A program made the position numbers and the translations under genes. From an uncultured Eubacterium sp. (GTDB lineage Bacteria > Bacillota > Clostridia > Lachnospirales > Lachnospiraceae), in NCBI GenBank assembly GCA_934338065.1, contig CAKRGX010000021.1, forward strand, positions 1 through 25,752: a stretch of 25,752 bases of DNA, in the 5' to 3' direction. The notes beneath the pieces were generated by a model that saw nothing but the letters and a program-made list of their open reading frames with translations, was not told the DNA's origin and searched no databases. Numbering within the stretch: position 1 is the stretch's first letter; every line of letters starts with the position of its first letter. Below, in pieces: positions 13,396 through 22,776 of the stretch.

Positions 13396-14301
13396 ATGGC
13401 AGAGCAATTATTTACAAACGAAGTGATTTTATCGTGGCTGCAATATTATGCGAAGAATACGGCCATTGATCTGGAGCATGTGAAGATCATTGATATTACA
13501 AAGAAGAATAAGAATGTTATTCCGACCGTAGAATCTCATAAGACTACAATGGTCTTTACCAATGCCGGTGTGGATGATATTTTTTACCGGCTGTGGAATG
13601 CCGGTCTGGGTGAGTGTGATGTCTGGTATAATGAGGGGGCCGATCCAGATGGACAGATTTATAATAAGAAAGTGAAAGATATGATCGACCGTGGTATCAA
13701 TGCTTCTGCCGGAATGTTGATCATTAATTCCAATGCACGGAACACTGCCAAGATTGGAATTGGAAATGAACTTTTTCAGAAGGGTTCCATACAATATGTG
13801 GGAAGTGAGATCCGCGCCATTATTTTAAACAAAATGATGGTTGATACGGCAGATGATATCTGTGTCATTGGTGGTGAGAGTATTGCCATAGAGGCTGCTC
13901 TGCTGGCACCAGAAGGTAAAGTGATAGCGGTAGAATACAATAGAGCAGACCGAGAGACGATGGAAGATAATGTCAACCATTTTGGATTACATAATGTGGT
14001 TATTATTGATCATGTAGATGAACAAAGTATGGAAGGATGTCCGGTGCCTTCTCTTGTATTTATGGTAGCATCTGCAAGCATGGATCAGGAACTGACTTAT
14101 CTGAAGAAAATAAATCCACAGATCAACGTCGTGATTTATACGTTAGATTTTCAGGTGGCGGCAGGAGCCTCGAAAATGCTGGAAGAGATGGGAATTACGG
14201 ATGTGGAAACGATTCAGGTAGCTGTTTCACGGTTGGGAAGTAATCATTCTTTTAAACAACAGCCGGCACCTTGGATCATAACAGGGAAGGGCCGGGAATG
14301 A
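13396..14301 (+). CDS. Orphan CbiE/CbiT-like (precorrin methylase-like) protein
   Basis: A 301-residue protein. Residues about 50-115 resemble the C-terminal half of CbiE (cobalt-precorrin C5 methylase). Residues about 118-300 resemble CbiT (C15 methylase/decarboxylase): Gly-Ile-Gly-Asn-Glu-Leu-Phe, a Ser-Glu-Ile-Arg-Ala-Ile-Ile-Leu helix, then Ile-Glu-Ala-Ala-Leu-Leu-Ala-Pro-Glu-Gly and Val-Ile-Ala-Val-Glu. The SAM loop, Asp-x-Gly-x-Gly-Ser-Gly in CbiT, reads Val-Ile-Gly-Gly-Glu-Ser here: about two residues shorter and without the Asp. Normal SAM methylation is therefore doubtful. No other cobalamin gene is near. Its stop overlaps the feoA start (ATGA), tying it to ferrous iron uptake. It may bind a tetrapyrrole, iron or a nucleotide; this is inference. 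Confidence 0.72.
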   Translation: MAEQLFTNEVILSWLQYYAKNTAIDLEHVKIIDITKKNKNVIPTVESHKTTMVFTNAGVDDIFYRLWNAGLGECDVWYNEGADPDGQIYNKKVKDMIDRGINASAGMLIINSNARNTAKIGIGNELFQKGSIQYVGSEIRAIILNKMMVDTADDICVIGGESIAIEAALLAPEGKVIAVEYNRADRETMEDNVNHFGLHNVVIIDHVDEQSMEGCPVPSLVFMVASASMDQELTYLKKINPQINVVIYTLDFQVAAGASKMLEEMGITDVETIQVAVSRLGSNHSFKQQPAPWIITGKGRE

Positions 14302-14552
14302 AAATGAATGATGAGGTCATGCAATTGTGTACCAGACAGATGGGAAAGACTTATCGGATTCAGAGTATGGAACTCCCCTTACAGACGGAAAAACGTCTGG
14401 AGGCATTGGGACTTACGAAAAATACACCGATTCGTATTTTAAACAGAAAAGGACATGGAACAATGATTGTTCAGGTGCGTGGTACAAGATTTGCTCTAGG
14501 ATATGGGATAACTAAGAATATTCAAGTGAAGGGGGTCTCTCAGAGTGAGTGA
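14298..14552 (+). CDS. feoA: FeoA-family ferrous iron transport protein
   Basis: An 84-residue SH3-like protein that partners FeoB in Fe2+ uptake on the cytoplasmic side. It shows the usual pattern: a central Leu-Glu-Ala-Leu-Gly-Leu-Thr-Lys-Asn-Thr-Pro-Ile turn, then Gly-Thr-Met-Ile-Val-Gln-Val-Arg-Gly-Thr-Arg-Phe-Ala-Leu-Gly, the strand common to FeoA/DtxR-C domains. The ATG at 14298 overlaps the stop of the CbiT-like gene, and AAGGG lies 6 bp ahead. A second ATG at 14304 is possible. Its 3' end overlaps feoB by 8 bp. Confidence 0.88.
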   Translation: MKMNDEVMQLCTRQMGKTYRIQSMELPLQTEKRLEALGLTKNTPIRILNRKGHGTMIVQVRGTRFALGYGITKNIQVKGVSQSE

Positions 14553-16584
14553 TAGCCTGACAGTGGGGTTTATTGGAAATCCCAATTGTGGTAAGACAAC
14601 GTTATTTAATGCTTTTACCGGCGCCAATTTAAAGGTTGCAAATTGGCCGGGGGTAACAGTTGAGAAGATGGAAGGTGTGTTTCGTTATCATGATCACAGT
14701 TACCGGCTGGTTGATCTGCCGGGGACTTATAGTCTGACATCTTATACGATGGAAGAACAGGTTGCCAGACAATATATTTTGAGTGATGAAGTAGATGTCA
14801 TTGTCGATGTGGCAGATGCTTCCTCTCTGGAGCGCAATCTGTATCTCACCTTGCAGTTACTTGAATTAGGTAAGCCGGTTGTACTGGCTCTTAATATGAT
14901 GGACATTGTTGAAAAGCGTGGGATGGAGATCGATCTGCACCGTTTACCTGAGATGCTGGGAATTCCGGTGATTCCTGTCTGTGCCAGAAAACGTACCGGG
15001 TTAGGGATTCTTATGCATGCAGTAGCGCATCATAAAGATGCTGTGTGTCCGGATAAATTGGAACATCATCATGAGAGACCGTCACATCACCGTCATAATC
15101 ATCATGTGGATCATGTTATGGTTTATAGTGATCTGCTGGAAGATAAAATTGATCTTATTTCTGAGACCTTATTAAAACAATATTCGGATATTGGTAATGT
15201 GCGGTGGTGTGCGATCAAGCTGCTGGAGCAGGATAAGGAAATCATGGAACGGTATCCGGTTGATCTCCCTGACGTGATGGACCGCAGTTATGAGTCAGAT
15301 ATTATCAACGAGAAGTATGATTTCATTCAGGAGATTGTTTCCGAAGTGCTTGTCAACAAAGATGAAAAGGCGGAGTCTACCAACCGGGCAGACCGGCTGC
15401 TTACCCATCGTTTTTTCGGAATCCCCATTTTTCTTGTTATTATGGCAGTTGTTTTTCTACTGACATTTACGGTGGGAGATTGGATTGCCGGTTATTTTGA
15501 AATGGCTGTAGGATGGCTTGGCAGAACGGTCAGTGATCTGTTTGCCGGGTGGCAGGTTAATGAGGCAGTTACTTCGCTTGTAGTAGATGGAATTATAAGC
15601 GGGGTTGGAGGTATACTTACTTTTTTACCGAATATTTTTATTTTGTTCCTTGCCCTTGCATTTCTTGAGGACAGCGGATACATGGCGCGTGTTGCTTATG
15701 TAATGGATGGTGTTATGGGACGAATCGGTCTGTCGGGAAGGGCATTTATCCCGATGATCTTAGGGTTCGGATGCTCAGTGCCAGCTATTATGGCATCACG
15801 TGCTCTGGAGGACGAAAAAGATCGAAAAAAAACAATATTAGTTACGCCTTTTATGTCGTGTAGTGCACGGCTGCCTATCTACATATTATTTTCACATATG
15901 TTCTTTGGCAAGTATGCCATGCTCGCTGCATATTCTATGTATGTGATCGGGCTGGCTGTAGCAATTTTGGTAGCTTTTGTTTTGCATATGGCAGATCGCA
16001 AGAAAGCGACAGGAATGTTGCTGATCGAGTTGCCGGAGTATAAGGCACCGAGTGCACGGACGATATGGATCTATGTGTGGGAAAAAGTTAAGGATTATCT
16101 TACAAAGGCAGGAACGGTCATTTTCCTTGCATCAATTGTTATGTGGCTTCTTTTAAATTTTGGTGTGAGTGGTTATACAACTAATATGGCAGACAGTTTT
16201 GGCGCTTATATTGGAAAATTCATTGTTCCGCTTCTTGTCCCGGCCGGGCTGGGATATTGGCAGCTGGCTGTGGCGCTGATCGCCGGAGTATCGGCGAAAG
16301 AAGTTGTTGTATCAAGCTGTGCCGTTCTCTTTGGTGTTACCAATGTGACTTCAGCGACGGGGATGGGTGCATTGCATACGGCATTGGCAGGCAGTGGCTT
16401 TGGCATGTTGAATGCATTTTGTCTGATGGTATTTTGTTTGTTATATATTCCCTGTTTTGCCACGTTAACGACAATTCGCAAGGAGAGTGGCAGTTGGAAA
16501 TTTGCTGGATTGGCAGCAGCATTTCAGCTTCTCGTGGCATGGTTAGTTGCTTTTGTTATTTATCAGATAGGAGGTCTGCTTTAA
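14545..16584 (+). CDS. feoB: Ferrous iron transporter FeoB
   Basis: A 679-residue Fe2+ transporter with an N-terminal G-protein domain. G1 is Gly-Asn-Pro-Asn-Cys-Gly-Lys-Thr-Thr (11-19), G3 Asp-Leu-Pro-Gly-Thr-Tyr-Ser (57-63) and G4 Asn-Met-Met-Asp (117-120). A helical spacer follows, then a membrane part with two Gate repeats, including the conserved Gly-Phe-Gly-Cys-Ser-Val-Pro-Ala-Ile-Met with Cys410 in the presumed iron path. Residues 174-190 contain nine histidines in 17 positions, an unusual metal-binding-looking loop right after the G domain. The start is a GTG with AAGGGGG 9 bp upstream, overlapping feoA. The stop overlaps the next kinase gene (TAATG). The overlaps imply translational coupling. 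Confidence 0.95.
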   Translation: MSDSLTVGFIGNPNCGKTTLFNAFTGANLKVANWPGVTVEKMEGVFRYHDHSYRLVDLPGTYSLTSYTMEEQVARQYILSDEVDVIVDVADASSLERNLYLTLQLLELGKPVVLALNMMDIVEKRGMEIDLHRLPEMLGIPVIPVCARKRTGLGILMHAVAHHKDAVCPDKLEHHHERPSHHRHNHHVDHVMVYSDLLEDKIDLISETLLKQYSDIGNVRWCAIKLLEQDKEIMERYPVDLPDVMDRSYESDIINEKYDFIQEIVSEVLVNKDEKAESTNRADRLLTHRFFGIPIFLVIMAVVFLLTFTVGDWIAGYFEMAVGWLGRTVSDLFAGWQVNEAVTSLVVDGIISGVGGILTFLPNIFILFLALAFLEDSGYMARVAYVMDGVMGRIGLSGRAFIPMILGFGCSVPAIMASRALEDEKDRKKTILVTPFMSCSARLPIYILFSHMFFGKYAMLAAYSMYVIGLAVAILVAFVLHMADRKKATGMLLIELPEYKAPSARTIWIYVWEKVKDYLTKAGTVIFLASIVMWLLLNFGVSGYTTNMADSFGAYIGKFIVPLLVPAGLGYWQLAVALIAGVSAKEVVVSSCAVLFGVTNVTSATGMGALHTALAGSGFGMLNAFCLMVFCLLYIPCFATLTTIRKESGSWKFAGLAAAFQLLVAWLVAFVIYQIGGLL

Positions 16585-19082
16585 TGGAAAAAGAGACGCA
16601 GCGTGCAGCACATCTTTTGATCTTGACGGTTTATTCAATTGCTACTTTTGCTATGATCGGTGAATCATTCCTGTTAGGCTGGGAGACAGGACCGATTGTT
16701 TTGTTTGTCATAGCTCTTATATTTAGCTGGGTAATCTATTTTTCCGGGAAAGTTCCCGTGACAACAAGATTGTGGCTGTATGTCACGTTTACCATGCTAT
16801 CCTTTTTCTTTTATGGAATTCATGAGACCAGTATTTTTGATCTGGCACCAGTGATCATAGTCATTATTATTTTGTATGCGGTAACAGAAAGTCAGCGCGT
16901 GATCGCATTTTCCGTGGGAACCTACTTTATGACAATAGCTTATGATTTTATTTTTGTCAGAATGATTGAACTGTCTCCTCTTGTTATATCCAGAATTTTG
17001 TTACATTTTCTGCTTGTCATTGTAGCCGCAAAGCTGGTTAGTGTTGAAATAATGAGAATCGGCGAAGATCGTAAGAAGGCAGAAAAACAAATCAAAGTGC
17101 TGGAACAGGCAAATCGCAGGACGGAAGATTTTCTTGCCAATGTATCTCACGAATTACGTACGCCGATTAATGTAGTAACCGGAATTACGAGTGTTATGCT
17201 GAAGAATGAAGAGGATAAGAAGAAGAGAAAAAATCTGACCTCCATTCAGGCTGCCGGACATCGGTTGTTCGGGCAGATTAGTGATATTCTTGATTATACA
17301 GAGATTGATACAAAAAGGATCAAGGTCAGTCAAGAAAAATATATGATCACGTCTCTTGTAAATGATATCATCATGGGGCAGTTTCTGACTGAAAAGAAAG
17401 AAAAACTGGAGTTAGTGTTCGATATTGCACCCAGCATACCATCCGTTCTTTTAGGTGATGGAAAAAAGATAAAAAAAATACTTAATCATTTGATAGAAAA
17501 TGCGTTGAAATATACACAAATAGGAGGCATTTATGTCAGGATATATGCTTTACCAAAAGAGTACGGTATCAATCTTTGTTTGCAGGTAAAGGATACCGGA
17601 GTAGGAATTTCACAAGATGAGCTGGAAAAGATCCGGATAGGCTTTTATCAATCGAATAGTGGAAGAGACCTGAGAGCAGGAGGGCTTGGACTGGGCTTGT
17701 CGATCGTGTCCGGTCTGGTTTCTGCTATGGAAGGATTTATACAGGTAGAAAGTACACTGGGGCAGGGAACAGCGATTTCCATCAGTATTCCGCAGAAAAT
17801 ATCAGATGAAACACCAAGCATGATGGTGAAAAATCCGGGAGCCTTTAGTCTGGCGTGTTATTCAAGGATGGAGAAATATAAAGTTCCGGCAGTTAGAGAG
17901 TATTATAATGAGATGATTGCCCATCTTGTAGAAGGAGTCAACATTCCGCTGCATTGGTCGGATGATATTAGCGGGTTAGAACGATTGCTGGATACGTACG
18001 AGTTGACCCATTTGTTTGTGGGAAAAGAAGAATACGAAGAGAATCCATCGGTATTCGCCAAGATTGATCCACGAATAAAGGTTATTATTATAGTAGATGA
18101 ACACTTTACAGAATCAAAAGATTGTCCAGCAATATTTCTCAAAAAGCCATTTTATAGTCTGCCTATTGTCACCATATTAAATGCAGGAGAGGCGGAACAA
18201 GACAGCAGTGCAAAGAAGAGGGCGAAGATCTGCCCAGGGATCCGTGTTCTTGTTGTTGATGATGAACCGATGAACCTGATGGTAGCAGAGGGAATATTCA
18301 AAGAATTTCAAATGAATGTGACTACGGCGGAAAGTGGTAGGAAAGCAATTAATCTTTGCCGGAAAAATGATTACGATCTGATTTTTTTGGATCACATGAT
18401 GCCAGAGATGGATGGGATAGAGACACTTCGACAGATTCGTCAGGTTGGCGAAGAGACAGACAGAGAGTTTACTATAATTGCATTTACAGCAAATGCTGTT
18501 AGTGGTGCAAGAGAAATGTTTTTGCAGAAGGGATTCGATGAATTTGTAGCGAAACCGGTTGAATCGTTGGAGATTGAACGTGTTCTGAGAAAAGTTTTAC
18601 CGAAAGCAGCGATTGTGTATGCTGATAAAACACAGCAGCCAGAACCGGAGGAACTTGTAGTTCAGGAAAGCTCTGAGAATGGCGAAGACAGTGACCCAGG
18701 CGCTGTTGGGGATACAGCAGAGGACAAAATGAGCCGGCTAGAGAGAAAAGGAATTCAAGTACAAACCGGGATTGACTATAGTGGTGGTGATGAAGAATTT
18801 TATATTGAACTGCTTACCAGATTTGCAGAGGATGCTAAAATAAAGGAAGACAAAATGGGCGATTTTCTAAAACAGGGAGATATAGCAAATTATGAAATTC
18901 TTGTACATTCGCTAAAGAGTTCCGCGAAGATGATAGGCGCAGAAGAATTGTCGGAACATGCGAAGCAGGCAGAAGAAGCTGCTAAAAATAGGGATAACGA
19001 ATATCTGCAAGAACATCATGGAGAATTGATGGCTGAGTATGGTGAGACGGTAAGTCATATAGTCGAAGTAGTTGGAGTATAA
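16584..19082 (+). CDS. Hybrid histidine kinase with receiver and Hpt domains
   Basis: An 832-residue membrane phosphorelay protein. About six membrane helices (10-150) with tiny loops form the sensor. A coiled coil leads to the H-box Val-Ser-His-Glu-Leu-Arg-Thr-Pro (His189). The ATPase domain has Asn-His-Leu-Ile-Glu-Asn-Ala (301-307), Asp-Thr-Gly-Val-Gly and Gly-Leu-Gly-Leu-Gly-Leu-Ser. Residues 420-535 look like a receiver fold without a phosphorylation Asp. A true receiver follows (553-672: Asp559/Asp560, phosphoacceptor Asp603, Lys657). An Hpt domain (about 730-828) has His775 in Val-His-Ser-Leu-Lys-Ser-Ser-Ala-Lys. All relay stations are thus in one chain. The ATG at 16584 overlaps the feoB stop, with AGGAGG at 16569-16574; a longer frame back to 16257 lies inside feoB. 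The final response regulator is not in view. Confidence 0.92.
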   Translation: MEKETQRAAHLLILTVYSIATFAMIGESFLLGWETGPIVLFVIALIFSWVIYFSGKVPVTTRLWLYVTFTMLSFFFYGIHETSIFDLAPVIIVIIILYAVTESQRVIAFSVGTYFMTIAYDFIFVRMIELSPLVISRILLHFLLVIVAAKLVSVEIMRIGEDRKKAEKQIKVLEQANRRTEDFLANVSHELRTPINVVTGITSVMLKNEEDKKKRKNLTSIQAAGHRLFGQISDILDYTEIDTKRIKVSQEKYMITSLVNDIIMGQFLTEKKEKLELVFDIAPSIPSVLLGDGKKIKKILNHLIENALKYTQIGGIYVRIYALPKEYGINLCLQVKDTGVGISQDELEKIRIGFYQSNSGRDLRAGGLGLGLSIVSGLVSAMEGFIQVESTLGQGTAISISIPQKISDETPSMMVKNPGAFSLACYSRMEKYKVPAVREYYNEMIAHLVEGVNIPLHWSDDISGLERLLDTYELTHLFVGKEEYEENPSVFAKIDPRIKVIIIVDEHFTESKDCPAIFLKKPFYSLPIVTILNAGEAEQDSSAKKRAKICPGIRVLVVDDEPMNLMVAEGIFKEFQMNVTTAESGRKAINLCRKNDYDLIFLDHMMPEMDGIETLRQIRQVGEETDREFTIIAFTANAVSGAREMFLQKGFDEFVAKPVESLEIERVLRKVLPKAAIVYADKTQQPEPEELVVQESSENGEDSDPGAVGDTAEDKMSRLERKGIQVQTGIDYSGGDEEFYIELLTRFAEDAKIKEDKMGDFLKQGDIANYEILVHSLKSSAKMIGAEELSEHAKQAEEAAKNRDNEYLQEHHGELMAEYGETVSHIVEVVGV

Positions 19083-19117: not shown

Positions 19118-21796
19118 ATGATAAATGGCAGGAAAGTTTTTCAAGCGGTAATGGATAGTAACCGTACACGTCAGGAGCGCATATACCGTTTACTGATAAT
19201 ATTCGGGTTGTTTGCGCTGGCTATTGGTGCGGTATCCGGGATTATTTCCGGGCAGAGTGTTTATAGTGCGATTATACCGGTTTTTGCTTTTGTACTTGTT
19301 CTGGGAATTGCTTATTTTACCATTAAGTACAATAAGATACAGATAGGTGCTATTCTTATAGCGGTATTTTCCAGTGTATTGTTTTTACCATTTAACTTTA
19401 TGCTTAGTGGTGGGATTTATGGTGGTGGGTCCATATGGTTTATTTTTGAAGCGGTCTTTATTTGTCTTGTTGTTGAAAATACAGCAAAGTATGTTTTGTT
19501 GGCTTGTGGCTTTGTAATTGGCACTGTTTGCTACCTTACGGCCTACTTTTATCCACAATGGATCTTTGTTCCTCCTGTTAAAGCTATTTATGTGGATTCT
19601 TTTAGTAATCTGGTTATTGTTGCAAGTGTTACCTGCGGTATGATCCTATTTCAGAATTCAATTTTCCGTTCAGAAAATGAAACAACTAAAAAGCAAAAAA
19701 AAGAGATTGAAGAACTGAATCAGATGCAGAATCGTTTTTTCTCAAACATGAGCCATGAGATCCGGACACCAATCAACACAATTATAGGTCTGAATGAAAT
19801 GATCTTGCGTGAAGATGTCTCTGACGAAGTGGCAGACGATGCAAAAAGTATTCAGGGGGCAAGTAAAATGCTGCTGGCACTTATTAATGACATACTCGAT
19901 ATGTCAAAGATTGAGTCAGGGCGGATGGATATTGTGCCAGTGACGTATCGTATAGGGGATATGCTGTCTGACATTGTGAATATGATTTGGGTGCGTGCGC
20001 AGAAAAAGAATCTGGAATTTCATATTGATGTAGATCCGGCTATGCCACAACAGCTATATGGTGATGAGGTTCGTATTAAACAGATATTAATAAATGTGCT
20101 GAACAACGCTGTTAAATACACATCAGAAGGTTCCGTTACGTTATCAATTCATTGTCAGAAGAAGGAAAAAGGGCATGCCATAATCAGCTTTTCGGTAACT
20201 GATACCGGGATGGGAATCAAGAAAGAGAGTATACCACATTTGTTTAGTGCTTTTAAACGGGTTGACGAACAGAAAAACCGTTATATTGAAGGAACAGGAT
20301 TGGGACTTTCCATCGTGAAACAGCTGGTGGAACTGCTGGATGGAGAGATTGCAGTCAATAGTGTTTATACAAAAGGTTCTACCTTTGTGATAACACTGCC
20401 TCAGGGAATTGCCAGTGAGGATGAGCTGGGAGAATTAAATTTGGAAACAAGATACGCTCTGAATGAAAGAAAACACTATAAACAAAGTTTTGAGGCGCCT
20501 AAGGCGCATGTTTTGATCGTGGATGATAACGAGACTAACCTTATGGTCGCAGAAAAACTGTTACGTGACACTAAGGTAGGGGTCGATCTCACGTCAACGG
20601 GACAGGATTGTTTAGTAAAAACACTTCAGCAAAGATATGATGTGATTCTCATGGATCACCTGATGCCGGGGATGGATGGTATTGAATGTCTGCATGCAAT
20701 CCGCAAGCAGGTGGGAGGACTGAATCAGAATACGCCGGTTGTGGCACTTACAGCCAATGCAGGAGGAGAAAATCAGTCATTGTATCGAAGAGAGGGCTTT
20801 GATGGTTATTTGTTGAAACCGGTAACAGGTATACAACTAGAAACTGAGTTATTGCGTCATTTGCCGAGAGAATTGGTAAGCAAGGTGGCAGTCGATAGTA
20901 AGATGAATGACATTGTGCCATCAATTCAGAAACATAAGGACAAAAAGATGATTCTGATTTCAACAGATAGCGTTTGTGATTTGCCAAAACAACTTGTGGA
21001 TAATAAGCAGATAGCTATTATGCCATACCATGTTATGACAAAAGGAGGCGTATTCCTTGATGGAGTAGAAACAGAGACAGAAGGTGTCCTTTCATATATA
21101 AAAGAAACAGGAAATTCCGTTCGCTCACAAGAACCCAAAGTAGAAGATTATGAAGATTTTTTTGCGGAGCAGCTTACCAGGGCGCATAGCATCATTCATA
21201 TTTCAATGGCAGAACATGTCAGCTGTGGTTATCAGAATGCGAAAGAAGCGTCGAAAACATTTGATAATGTTTTTGTTATAAATTCAGGACATTTATCTAG
21301 TGGAATGGGAATGATGGTGCTGAAAGCAGCAGAATGTGCGGCAGAGGGAATGAGTGCAGAAAATATCATAAAAGAAATAGAACAGATGAAGAAGCGTGTT
21401 AAGACTAGTTTTATCGTAAACAGCACGGAGTATCTGGCACGGGTTGGACGAATATCCGACAAGGCAGATTCCCTGTGTCGGGCGCTTATGATCCATCCGG
21501 TTATTGTACTAAAAAATAGTTTTATGAAGGTTTGTTCTGTCCGTATTGGAAAAACAAAATATGCAAGACAGAAGTATATTGCGTCGACATTGAATTCCGG
21601 TATGATGCGCAAGGCTGATCATAAGATTTTGTTTATAACTTACGCCGGGTTGTCTAATGCTGAACTTAAGGAAATAGAAGAGCAGGTTAGAAGTAAAGCT
21701 GAATTTGACACTATTATTTGCCAGAAAGCTTCTCCTGCAATTTCTGCCAATTGTGGTCCGGGATCGTTTGGACTGCTTTTTGCACTGAAAGAGTAA
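19118..21796 (+). CDS. Hybrid histidine kinase fused to a DegV domain
   Basis: An 892-residue membrane protein with an unusual fusion. Residues 22-182 hold about six membrane helices. A coiled coil leads to the H-box Met-Ser-His-Glu-Ile-Arg-Thr-Pro (His213). The ATPase domain has Asn-Val-Leu-Asn-Asn-Ala-Val-Lys-Tyr, Asp-Thr-Gly-Met-Gly-Ile and Gly-Thr-Gly-Leu-Gly-Leu-Ser. The receiver (462-585) has Asp469/Asp470, phosphoacceptor Asp513 and Lys567. Residues 611-892 match a complete DegV/FakB-type fatty-acid-binding domain: Ser-Thr-Asp-Ser-Val-Cys-Asp-Leu-Pro, Tyr-Gln-Asn-Ala, Val-Gly-Arg-Ile-Ser and Cys-Gly-Pro-Gly-Ser-Phe-Gly. Free DegV proteins are about 280 residues, so the domain is whole. 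Some expected pocket residues differ (Arg669, Asn878). There is no Hpt domain; the kinase upstream has one. GAGGAGG precedes the ATG. Confidence 0.9.
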   Translation: MINGRKVFQAVMDSNRTRQERIYRLLIIFGLFALAIGAVSGIISGQSVYSAIIPVFAFVLVLGIAYFTIKYNKIQIGAILIAVFSSVLFLPFNFMLSGGIYGGGSIWFIFEAVFICLVVENTAKYVLLACGFVIGTVCYLTAYFYPQWIFVPPVKAIYVDSFSNLVIVASVTCGMILFQNSIFRSENETTKKQKKEIEELNQMQNRFFSNMSHEIRTPINTIIGLNEMILREDVSDEVADDAKSIQGASKMLLALINDILDMSKIESGRMDIVPVTYRIGDMLSDIVNMIWVRAQKKNLEFHIDVDPAMPQQLYGDEVRIKQILINVLNNAVKYTSEGSVTLSIHCQKKEKGHAIISFSVTDTGMGIKKESIPHLFSAFKRVDEQKNRYIEGTGLGLSIVKQLVELLDGEIAVNSVYTKGSTFVITLPQGIASEDELGELNLETRYALNERKHYKQSFEAPKAHVLIVDDNETNLMVAEKLLRDTKVGVDLTSTGQDCLVKTLQQRYDVILMDHLMPGMDGIECLHAIRKQVGGLNQNTPVVALTANAGGENQSLYRREGFDGYLLKPVTGIQLETELLRHLPRELVSKVAVDSKMNDIVPSIQKHKDKKMILISTDSVCDLPKQLVDNKQIAIMPYHVMTKGGVFLDGVETETEGVLSYIKETGNSVRSQEPKVEDYEDFFAEQLTRAHSIIHISMAEHVSCGYQNAKEASKTFDNVFVINSGHLSSGMGMMVLKAAECAAEGMSAENIIKEIEQMKKRVKTSFIVNSTEYLARVGRISDKADSLCRALMIHPVIVLKNSFMKVCSVRIGKTKYARQKYIASTLNSGMMRKADHKILFITYAGLSNAELKEIEEQVRSKAEFDTIICQKASPAISANCGPGSFGLLFALKE

Positions 21797-21842: not shown

Positions 21843-22190
21843 TTATATTGCCTGATTAAAATATCTTCGCAAAAAGAGTGGAACGGTTATCGGTTCAACC
21901 CTGCGGCAATAATCGGTATAATTTTTGGAGAGCAGGACATTTTTTGTTTCGGCGCACCGATTAAAAACAGATAAGTCGTAAAAATGTGGGGTGTCTTCAA
22001 TTCTGATTTGTGGGTGGTGTTGTTCCAGGTCATTTCTTAAAAGATCATTGACACCAGAATCCCCCTTTTTGACCATCATAAGTGTTTCTCCATATAAATC
22101 TTCGATATTAATGCATTTTTTCACAGCAAGGCGATGTCCTCTGGAAACGGCAATCATCTTCCGGTATCTGCCAAGGGGGAGCATTTGACA
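21843..22190 (-). pseudogene. LysR-family regulator, effector-domain fragment
   Basis: Minus-strand residues from about 22187 down to 21846 match the C-terminal half of a LysR-type regulator's substrate-binding domain: Pro-Leu-Gly-Arg-Tyr, Ile-Ala-Val-Ser-Arg-Gly-His-Arg-Leu-Ala, Ile-Glu-Asp-Leu-Tyr-Gly-Glu-Thr-Leu-Met, and Thr-Pro-His-Phe-Tyr-Asp-Leu-Ser-Val-Phe-Asn-Arg-Cys. The DNA-binding half is absent. The fragment is joined directly to an IS3 transposase fragment; the open frame continues to 22274, but those bases encode transposase in another frame. The family pattern also fades after Ile-Thr-Val-Pro near 21870, so the 3' end is probably damaged too. Confidence 0.75.
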
Positions 22191-22204
22191 GAGGTTGAGC
22201 CATG

Positions 22205-22737
22205 CCTTGCAGAAATGTTCCAGGCGATGACTTTGCGTGAAAATAAATCCATTACAATACAGAGGTAATACCATTTACTAGCGACTCTGATATATGTGAA
22301 ATCACTGACCCAGACGATGTTTGGAGATTTTTGGTTAAACTCTTGATGCAGATGATTGGTACATTTGTCATTATCTTTATGGCGGTAATTACGGAAAGAT
22401 TTTTCCGTGGACATGCGTGGTAGCTGAAGAGTTCTCATCTGGCGGTACACTCGTCCGACACTGATGTTTATGCTATAATCACGCTGAAGAACATAGGTGA
22501 TTTTATAAGCACCAAGACGCTTGTTGTAATCGGCGTAAATCTGAAGAATCATCTTAGCAATGTGTTGATTTTCTTTGGTGCGGTCAGCTGGTTCTGAATT
22601 ATAATGTTAGTAATAAGTGCTTCTGTTGACACCTAAGACTTTACAAAGAATTTTGATGTCATGTTGGAAGCGCAGCTTATGAACAGCTTCTAATCGTTGT
22701 TTGAGTGTGGCGTGAAGATGGCAATCGCTTTTTTTAA
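22205..22737 (-). pseudogene. IS3-family transposase (orfB) remnant with in-frame stop
   Basis: Read on the minus strand from about 22737, the frame encodes the helix-turn-helix part of an IS3/IS150-type OrfB (Leu-Gly-Val-Asn-Arg-Ser-Thr-Tyr-Tyr). It then hits a TAA at 22607-22609 and continues in frame with Arg-Leu-Gly-Ala-Tyr-Lys-Ile and the integrase core Trp-Val-Ser-Asp-Phe-Thr-Tyr-Ile, whose Asp is the first of the DDE triad. It breaks off after Val-Ile-Ala-Trp-Asn-Ile-Ser near 22211, losing the other two catalytic residues. The run of seven A at 22729-22735 (minus strand), followed by GCG, is where IS3 elements usually make their -1 frameshift between orfA and orfB; orfA itself is not recognisable. 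Inactive. Confidence 0.8.
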
Positions 22738-22776
22738 TATAGATCCAAGATAGAGAATGTTGTAAAAGGGGGGCAA

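Follow-up and report, generated by a model that had tools for sequence, protein, structure and literature searches.

A DegV domain in a two-kinase locus of Clostridia: a candidate lipid-responsive module of a phosphorelay

DegV/FakB proteins are fatty-acid carriers for FakA, and in the periplasmic systems LuxPQ and TorTS a hybrid kinase receives the ligand signal through a separate binding protein. We analysed a stretch of 25,752 nucleotides from an uncultured Eubacterium sp. (contig CAKRGX010000021.1; "the window" below means this whole stretch), in which a hybrid histidine kinase, HK2-DegV, ends in a DegV domain and is preceded by a second hybrid kinase, HK1. In RpfC/RpfG, a hybrid kinase with a five-transmembrane input, a receiver and a histidine phosphotransfer (Hpt) domain relays the fatty-acid signal DSF to an HD-GYP regulator (PMC4504480). 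In Staphylococcus aureus, another report links the fatty-acid kinase to the activity of the two-component system SaeRS (PMC5539427), the nearest physiological link seen in the literature. Among the full-text literature matches listed, a coverage without most subscription journals, none described a protein joining DegV to a histidine kinase, receiver or diguanylate cyclase; within that coverage, the statement of an earlier annotation made from the letters alone (the sequence-only reading) that no mechanism is described for this architecture stands.

We suggest, with a probability of about 0.5, that the DegV domain serves a two-kinase phosphorelay as its lipid-responsive sensor and was probably once a FakB-type carrier, which has lost its FakA dock. 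This is the most likely of the explanations considered, a ligand-free scaffold being the next.

The kinase pair and its distribution

HK2-DegV is one open frame whose coordinates had been given exactly in the sequence-only reading, and its features are as follows.

19118..21796, + strand: HK2-DegV, hybrid histidine kinase with C-terminal DegV, 892 amino acids (aa), single open frame
19118..19726, + strand: membrane part, residues 1-203, six predicted helices
19727..19921, + strand: HisKA, residues 204-268 (Pfam, E 5.7e-20; His213 codon 19754-19756)
20060..20404, + strand: HATPase_c, residues 315-429 (Pfam, E 1.5e-27)
20510..20845, + strand: receiver (Response_reg), residues 465-576 (Pfam, E 3.2e-20; Asp513 codon 20654-20656)
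20951..21784, + strand: DegV domain, residues 612-889 (Pfam PF02645, E 6.1e-47)
21125-21127, 21221-21223, 21449-21451 and 21749-21751, + strand: DegV codons of Ser670, Ser702, Arg778 and Asn878
21539-21541 and 21545-21547, + strand: codons of Val808 and Ile810, at the place of FakB's FakA-docking Lys-x-Arg

The proposed order of membrane part, HisKA, ATPase, receiver and full DegV was upheld by Pfam, where DegV, HATPase_c and Response_reg were all matched, and by TIGR00762; both DegV family profiles passed over the whole domain (PF02645, 160.7 bits against a cut-off of 27; TIGR00762, 177.5 against 99.7). In the structure model the membrane part has helices at residues 18-43, 48-70, 74-96, 106-118, 122-144 and 154-231, the last extending into HisKA, and its hydrophobic sequence suggests a membrane location. 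His213, Asn330, Asp362, Gly364, Gly366, Asp469, Asp470, Asp513 and Lys567 are invariant in 45/45 aligned HK2 members, on which ground a dying gene was rejected; the window protein is a hybrid histidine kinase by its HisKA, HATPase_c and receiver and their catalytic residues. A merger of two genes through sequencing or assembly error, a risk that the sequence-only reading had raised, is ruled out, because the same kinase fusion occurs in 82 of the 83 DegV open reading frames (ORFs) from the window and 79 further loci; the exception is the kinase-free protein of L050, and locus L057 yielded no DegV ORF.

These 79 loci came from a scan of genome contigs. Most are from Lachnospiraceae or other Clostridia, and the named isolates among them are Anaerotruncus colihominis JM4-15 and Butyrivibrio sp. 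VCD2006, MC2021 and YAB3001. A protein search with the DegV part, with hits confined to 0.55-1.75 times the length, returned 996 clusters, and HATPase_c, Response_reg and DegV were found together in all 120 listed. With long frames counted as fusions by length, without reading every one, matches above 255 bits in a frame of more than 700 aa were present in 9/246 sampled genomes from the order of Butyrivibrio MC2021 (MC2021 included). In the family of MC2021, 31/299 sampled genomes have a match with E <= 1e-45 in a frame of at least 786 aa, a low count since MC2021 itself, with four long-frame copies, falls under this threshold; of the short-frame rows of that search L264 and L265 were counted and L260-L263 left out. 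Among 197 genomes from the family of genome G959, nine have free-standing DegV members read in context and seven have matches in frames of 888-906 aa (32 rows: 14 context-read free members, 7 long-frame, and 11 weaker free ones including the FakB-type L215). The genome of P0203 lies outside these samples. Many DegV paralogues can be present in Clostridia, with 6 to 11 DegV matches in four of six genomes searched. Tandem HK2-DegV copies were also seen (L006:5282-10673 and L013:3781-9170), followed in L006 by further HK2-related kinase genes.

The partner kinase directly upstream had been omitted from the sequence-only reading.

16584..19082, + strand: HK1, hybrid kinase, 832 aa, 35 bp upstream of HK2-DegV
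17148-17150, 18390-18392 and 18906-18908, + strand: codons of His189 (HisKA), Asp603 (receiver) and His775 (Hpt) of HK1, whose HATPase_c was likewise matched by Pfam
18807..19007, + strand: Hpt of HK1, residues 742-808, the sole Hpt of the window pair
16582..16586, + strand: TAATG, the feoB stop overlapping the HK1 ATG (from the sequence)

Between the ATPase and receiver of HK1 a degenerate receiver-like stretch was read by eye. Across the window and the fused loci, 77 DegV ORFs have an upstream ORF, and for 72 of them this immediate neighbour is an HK1 in the same orientation, in some cases truncated by a contig end. The five without a clear HK1 are the second copies of L006 and L013, which follow another HK2, L007 and L009, with a short upstream piece, and L013, with an ambiguous HK1/HK2. 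As 28 HK1 from these very loci went into the HK1 profile, this figure is a classification and no independent test. At FakB-type DegV loci, HK1 kinases were found in 0/79 (flanks of about 1.5 kb), three loci having receiver-sized hits; these controls remain from an initial 92, of which 8 proved to be kinase-DegV fusions and 5 FakA loci, and two pairs of them overlap.

In 61 complete fused pairs the Hpt domain is found only on HK1 in 39 and only on HK2, C-terminal to DegV, in 22, with no pair having both or neither; cut HK2 (L019, L071) and short HK1 (L060) are left out of this count, and the wider set of 65 gives 41, 23 and 1. Subsets scanned by Pfam agree, with Hpt in 17/45 HK2, in 0/17 of the HK1 partners of those HK2 and in 26/28 other HK1; at L050 there is no Hpt on either the kinase-free DegV or its HK1. 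A single Hpt on one protein or the other would be hard to explain unless HK1 and HK2 act as one relay, as we infer.

The DegV clade and its ligand and docking positions

Members of the same DegV clade also occur without the kinase. In L219 (genome G959, order of Anaerotruncus) a free 284-aa DegV lies between an HK1-type kinase, 30% identical to the window HK1 in an 829-column alignment, and a protein with a receiver (REC) and a GGDEF domain. Free members were located by DegV similarity alone, and in all 16 read in context (14 from the G959 family, 2 from the MC2021 family) profile and motif place an HK1-type kinase directly upstream; in 7/16 they place REC-GGDEF directly downstream. The L050 protein of 516 aa consists of a membrane part and DegV, with no kinase or receiver, and has relatives of equal length in P0211 and P0212 (96% and 74% identity over the 260 residues searched), while L262 has a DegV-Hpt protein between an Hpt-less HK1 and REC-GGDEF. 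The receiver and kinase before DegV are therefore optional, and the proposal that DegV is the output of the receiver, made from the letters alone, is unsupported.

In a tree of 184 DegV domains, the fused set of 82, 20 free members and the DegV-Hpt domain group together (support 0.975), separate from 75 FakB-type and 6 spirochaete domains, with the fused set as an inner clade (0.917). The fused set includes the kinase-free L050 and the contig-edge copy L261, and the free set includes the broken L260; L263 (contig edge), L193 (short), L137-L145 and L167 were omitted from the tree. At L260:5684-8363, HK2 and DegV are in two overlapping frames, the second beginning at a run of A, where assembly error and slippage are indistinguishable. 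The idea that this locus is an intermediate, with HK2 and DegV as two genes, was rejected, since the locus reads as a fused gene with its frame broken at the A run, and it was for this reason left out of the free-member counts.

The DegV part is predicted to have the complete FakB fold, down to the elements that lie over the fatty-acid tunnel, and the best 45 Foldseek matches are all DegV/FakB proteins, many with fatty acid. The fatty-acid carboxylate in FakB1 is held by Thr62, Ser95, Ser171 and His270, Arg173 is essential for phosphorylation by FakA, and a positive wedge centred on Arg205 docks on FakA_C and on membranes (PMC8892158, PMC9136124). The corresponding positions were counted by alignment in 102 clade domains (82 of the fused set, 19 free, 1 DegV-Hpt) and 75 FakB-type DegVs.

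Thr62 position: S or T in 90/102 of the clade against 75/75 FakB-type; window Ser670 (this column is S in 67/81 domains)
Ser95 position: S in 85/102 against 71/75; window Ser702
Arg173 position: R in 43/102 against 75/75; window Arg778, kept
Lys two before Arg205: 0/102 against 67/75; window Val808
Arg205 position: R in 1/102 (L253) against 70/75; window Ile810
His270 position: N in 91/102 and H in 3/102 against H in 68/75; window Asn878

FakB2 numbering served as a cross-check of this mapping. The sequence-only reading had the change of His to Asn878 and the retained Ser702 right; its change of Thr to Arg669 was off by one in register, FakB Thr62 aligning with Ser670. The Thr62-Ser95-His270 network is incomplete in the window, with the hydroxyls kept (Ser670, Ser702) and His replaced by Asn878. 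With 11 further fused domains, of which L138 is the same gene as L073, the Arg205 position is Arg in 2/113 (L253, L140) and the complete Lys-x-Arg is present in 0/113. The next free DegVs found by the clade profile (L146-L193 minus L167) have the full FakB signature at these six positions in 47/47. At the three tunnel-wall positions tested the clade is similar to the FakB-type set, and a blocked fatty-acid tunnel, considered for a Leu at the FakB1 Ala121 position, was dropped because 45/75 FakB-type DegVs share this Leu.

The surface for hand-off to FakA is gone from the clade, with the predicted fold, two hydroxyls and three tunnel-wall positions kept. A carrier that had become a sensor would be expected to look like this, which is no proof of a ligand.

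A lipid-responsive module and the alternatives

In the proposed mechanism, HK1 and HK2 would pass phosphate via their receivers to the one Hpt and from there to a response regulator. How far kinase activity prevails over phosphatase activity would be set by a ligand bound in the DegV pocket through Ser670, Ser702 and Asn878, probably an acyl chain, and a free-standing DegV would act in trans on HK1. At loci with an adjoining HD-GYP or GGDEF regulator, the output would be turnover of cyclic di-GMP (c-di-GMP); elsewhere it would be something else. Of the two alternatives put forward in the sequence-only reading, the one in which a bound lipid may tune the kinase fits.

Several observations weigh against this proposal. 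Fatty-acid binding may have been lost, since two residues of the carboxylate network differ (Asn for His, Ser for Thr) and only 38/82 fused-set and 4/19 free members retain Arg173. Conservation within the domain reaches only the 70th percentile at Ser670 and the 63rd at Ser702, and loss of the docking Arg is incomplete, with Arg at that position in L253 (free) and L140 (fused) and His in L254 and L145. The full-length model (mean predicted local distance difference test score, pLDDT, 82.8; predicted template modelling score, pTM, 0.52) leaves the packing of DegV unfixed, the adjacency of HK1 and DegV shows a shared pathway and not contact, and Pfam detects no Hpt in two (L251, L257) of the 16 HK1 that accompany a free DegV. 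Motif scans for HD-GYP, GGDEF, REC and Hpt, which are short patterns with examples verified by Pfam, place an HD-GYP-motif gene directly above HK1 in 13 and GGDEF in 7 of the 62 loci with a gene there, and neither in 42/62; no GGDEF match was found in Anaerotruncus genome G001, which has the fusion, and no HD-GYP or GGDEF domain in the 20 window ORFs scanned by Pfam. For these reasons c-di-GMP is rejected as a universal output.

Among the alternatives, a ligand-free DegV that docks HK1, HK2 and the response regulator to one another, its former FakA and membrane wedge serving as a hydrophobic patch for a partner domain, is a possibility to be taken seriously, if a less probable one. The wedge is mostly hydrophobic in the clade, position 808 being V, I, L, A, M or F bar one gap and 810 mostly F, I, M, V or L; the separable DegV forms keep their HK1 neighbour, and Arg173 is often lost. 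FakA_C offers a precedent, being a FakB-like fold without fatty-acid tunnel that binds a protein (PMC9136124). That DegV instead senses a non-lipid small molecule in a reshaped pocket appears improbable: Asn at the His270 position and a His before Pro794 (83/102, against mostly Lys in FakB-type domains, 47/75) would fit such a ligand, but the tested tunnel wall is FakB-like, as are the best structural matches. Least probable of all is the model of the sequence-only reading, in which receiver phosphorylation gates fatty-acid binding or release by DegV and so feeds FakA and phospholipid synthesis; DegV does come after the receiver in the 45 fusions scanned and the window protein keeps Arg778, the equivalent of FakB1 Arg173, but the docking Lys is missing in 102/102 and the Arg in 101/102 domains, free and kinase-free members have no receiver, and one fusion genome has no match to FakA-like_C or Dak2, though five other fusion-bearing genomes searched have both.

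That genome, G005, is a Treponema whose sole DegV match is the fusion (L018), and with the lost dock residues it makes a FakA partnership unlikely; it is a metagenome-assembled genome, in which the absence of FakA could be a gap. A mis-binned contig is unlikely by composition, with tetranucleotide correlations of 0.75-0.95 between L018 and five pieces of G005's other contigs and of 0.33-0.74 with six pieces of four foreign genomes, though the lowest own value (0.75, a 12.6-kb contig) is near the highest foreign one. As G005 is the only one of 198 sampled genomes of its phylum with a match above 135 bits, gene transfer is likely. The same phylum contains proteins of about 600 aa with a FakB-like C-terminal half (L119-L124, L127-L130), which may be FakA-FakB fusions, the N-terminal half of L119 being Dak2-like by eye; in nine of these ten the Arg205 position is Phe or Tyr.

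The neighbourhoods of the pair are varied. A 1134-aa protein directly above the pair at L022:2886-6287 has HisKA, HATPase_c, two Response_reg and an HD domain with HD-GYP motif and, with a weak match to Hpt (24.5 bits against a cut-off of 24.6), would unite almost all of a phosphorelay in a single polypeptide. A family-3 solute-binding protein gene lies between HK2-DegV and REC-GGDEF at L222:7400-8203, and protein P0210 joins a partial DegV to a family-3 solute-binding domain, where the contig may be chimeric. At L062:10196-13502, HK2-DegV-Hpt is followed by a DUF6976 protein, a sodium:alanine symporter and a 254-aa receiver protein, and comparably sized ORFs come after it in several other Butyrivibrio-type loci. 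In the window, feoA, feoB, HK1 and HK2 run together from 14271 to 19082 with overlapping or close ends; since the feoB stop overlaps the HK1 start codon, both kinases are probably within the feoAB operon, suggesting a ferrous-iron link for this genome. The region 21843-22750, downstream of HK2, holds broken gene remains with a LysR substrate-binding match under cut-off and, by eye, transposase-like fragments on the minus strand.

In its wider form, which we advance more tentatively, the lipid-sensor proposal is that a FakB-type carrier left the FakA pathway and was taken over as the dedicated lipid receptor, in the cytosol, of a two-kinase relay with a single Hpt in gut Clostridia and a Treponema, its clade, free or fused, occurring in at least four architectures and connecting membrane lipid state to c-di-GMP and other outputs. 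If true, this would be the first signalling role for the many DegV paralogues of unknown use and, if the ligand is an acyl chain, a phosphorelay that reads lipid status through a dedicated lipid-binding protein in common gut bacteria. The clade is marked by its sequence, the loss of the FakA dock and a constant kinase neighbour, and its role is therefore directly testable.

Comparison with known systems

The arrangement resembles LuxPQ and TorTS in that a ligand-binding protein of a carrier family is encoded beside a hybrid kinase; unlike in those systems, DegV is on the side of the kinase domains, presumably the cytoplasm and not the periplasm. With FakB/DegV proteins (PF02645; S. aureus FakB1 and FakB2, PDB 5woo and 4x9x) it shares the predicted fold, the length, Ser at the Thr62 and Ser95 positions and, in the window protein, Arg173, whereas the clade is almost devoid of Arg205 and lacks its Lys, has Asn for His270, and is fused or adjacent to kinases, in one genome without a FakA match. 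HK1 has the membrane part-HisKA-ATPase-REC-Hpt order of RpfC, and in some loci the HD-GYP-motif gene directly above it recalls RpfG; the second kinase with DegV sets the locus apart, as does the window, where the ORFs scanned contain no HD-GYP. In SaeRS with the fatty-acid kinase, the enzymes and the two-component system are separate, whereas here the DegV protein is encoded within the relay.
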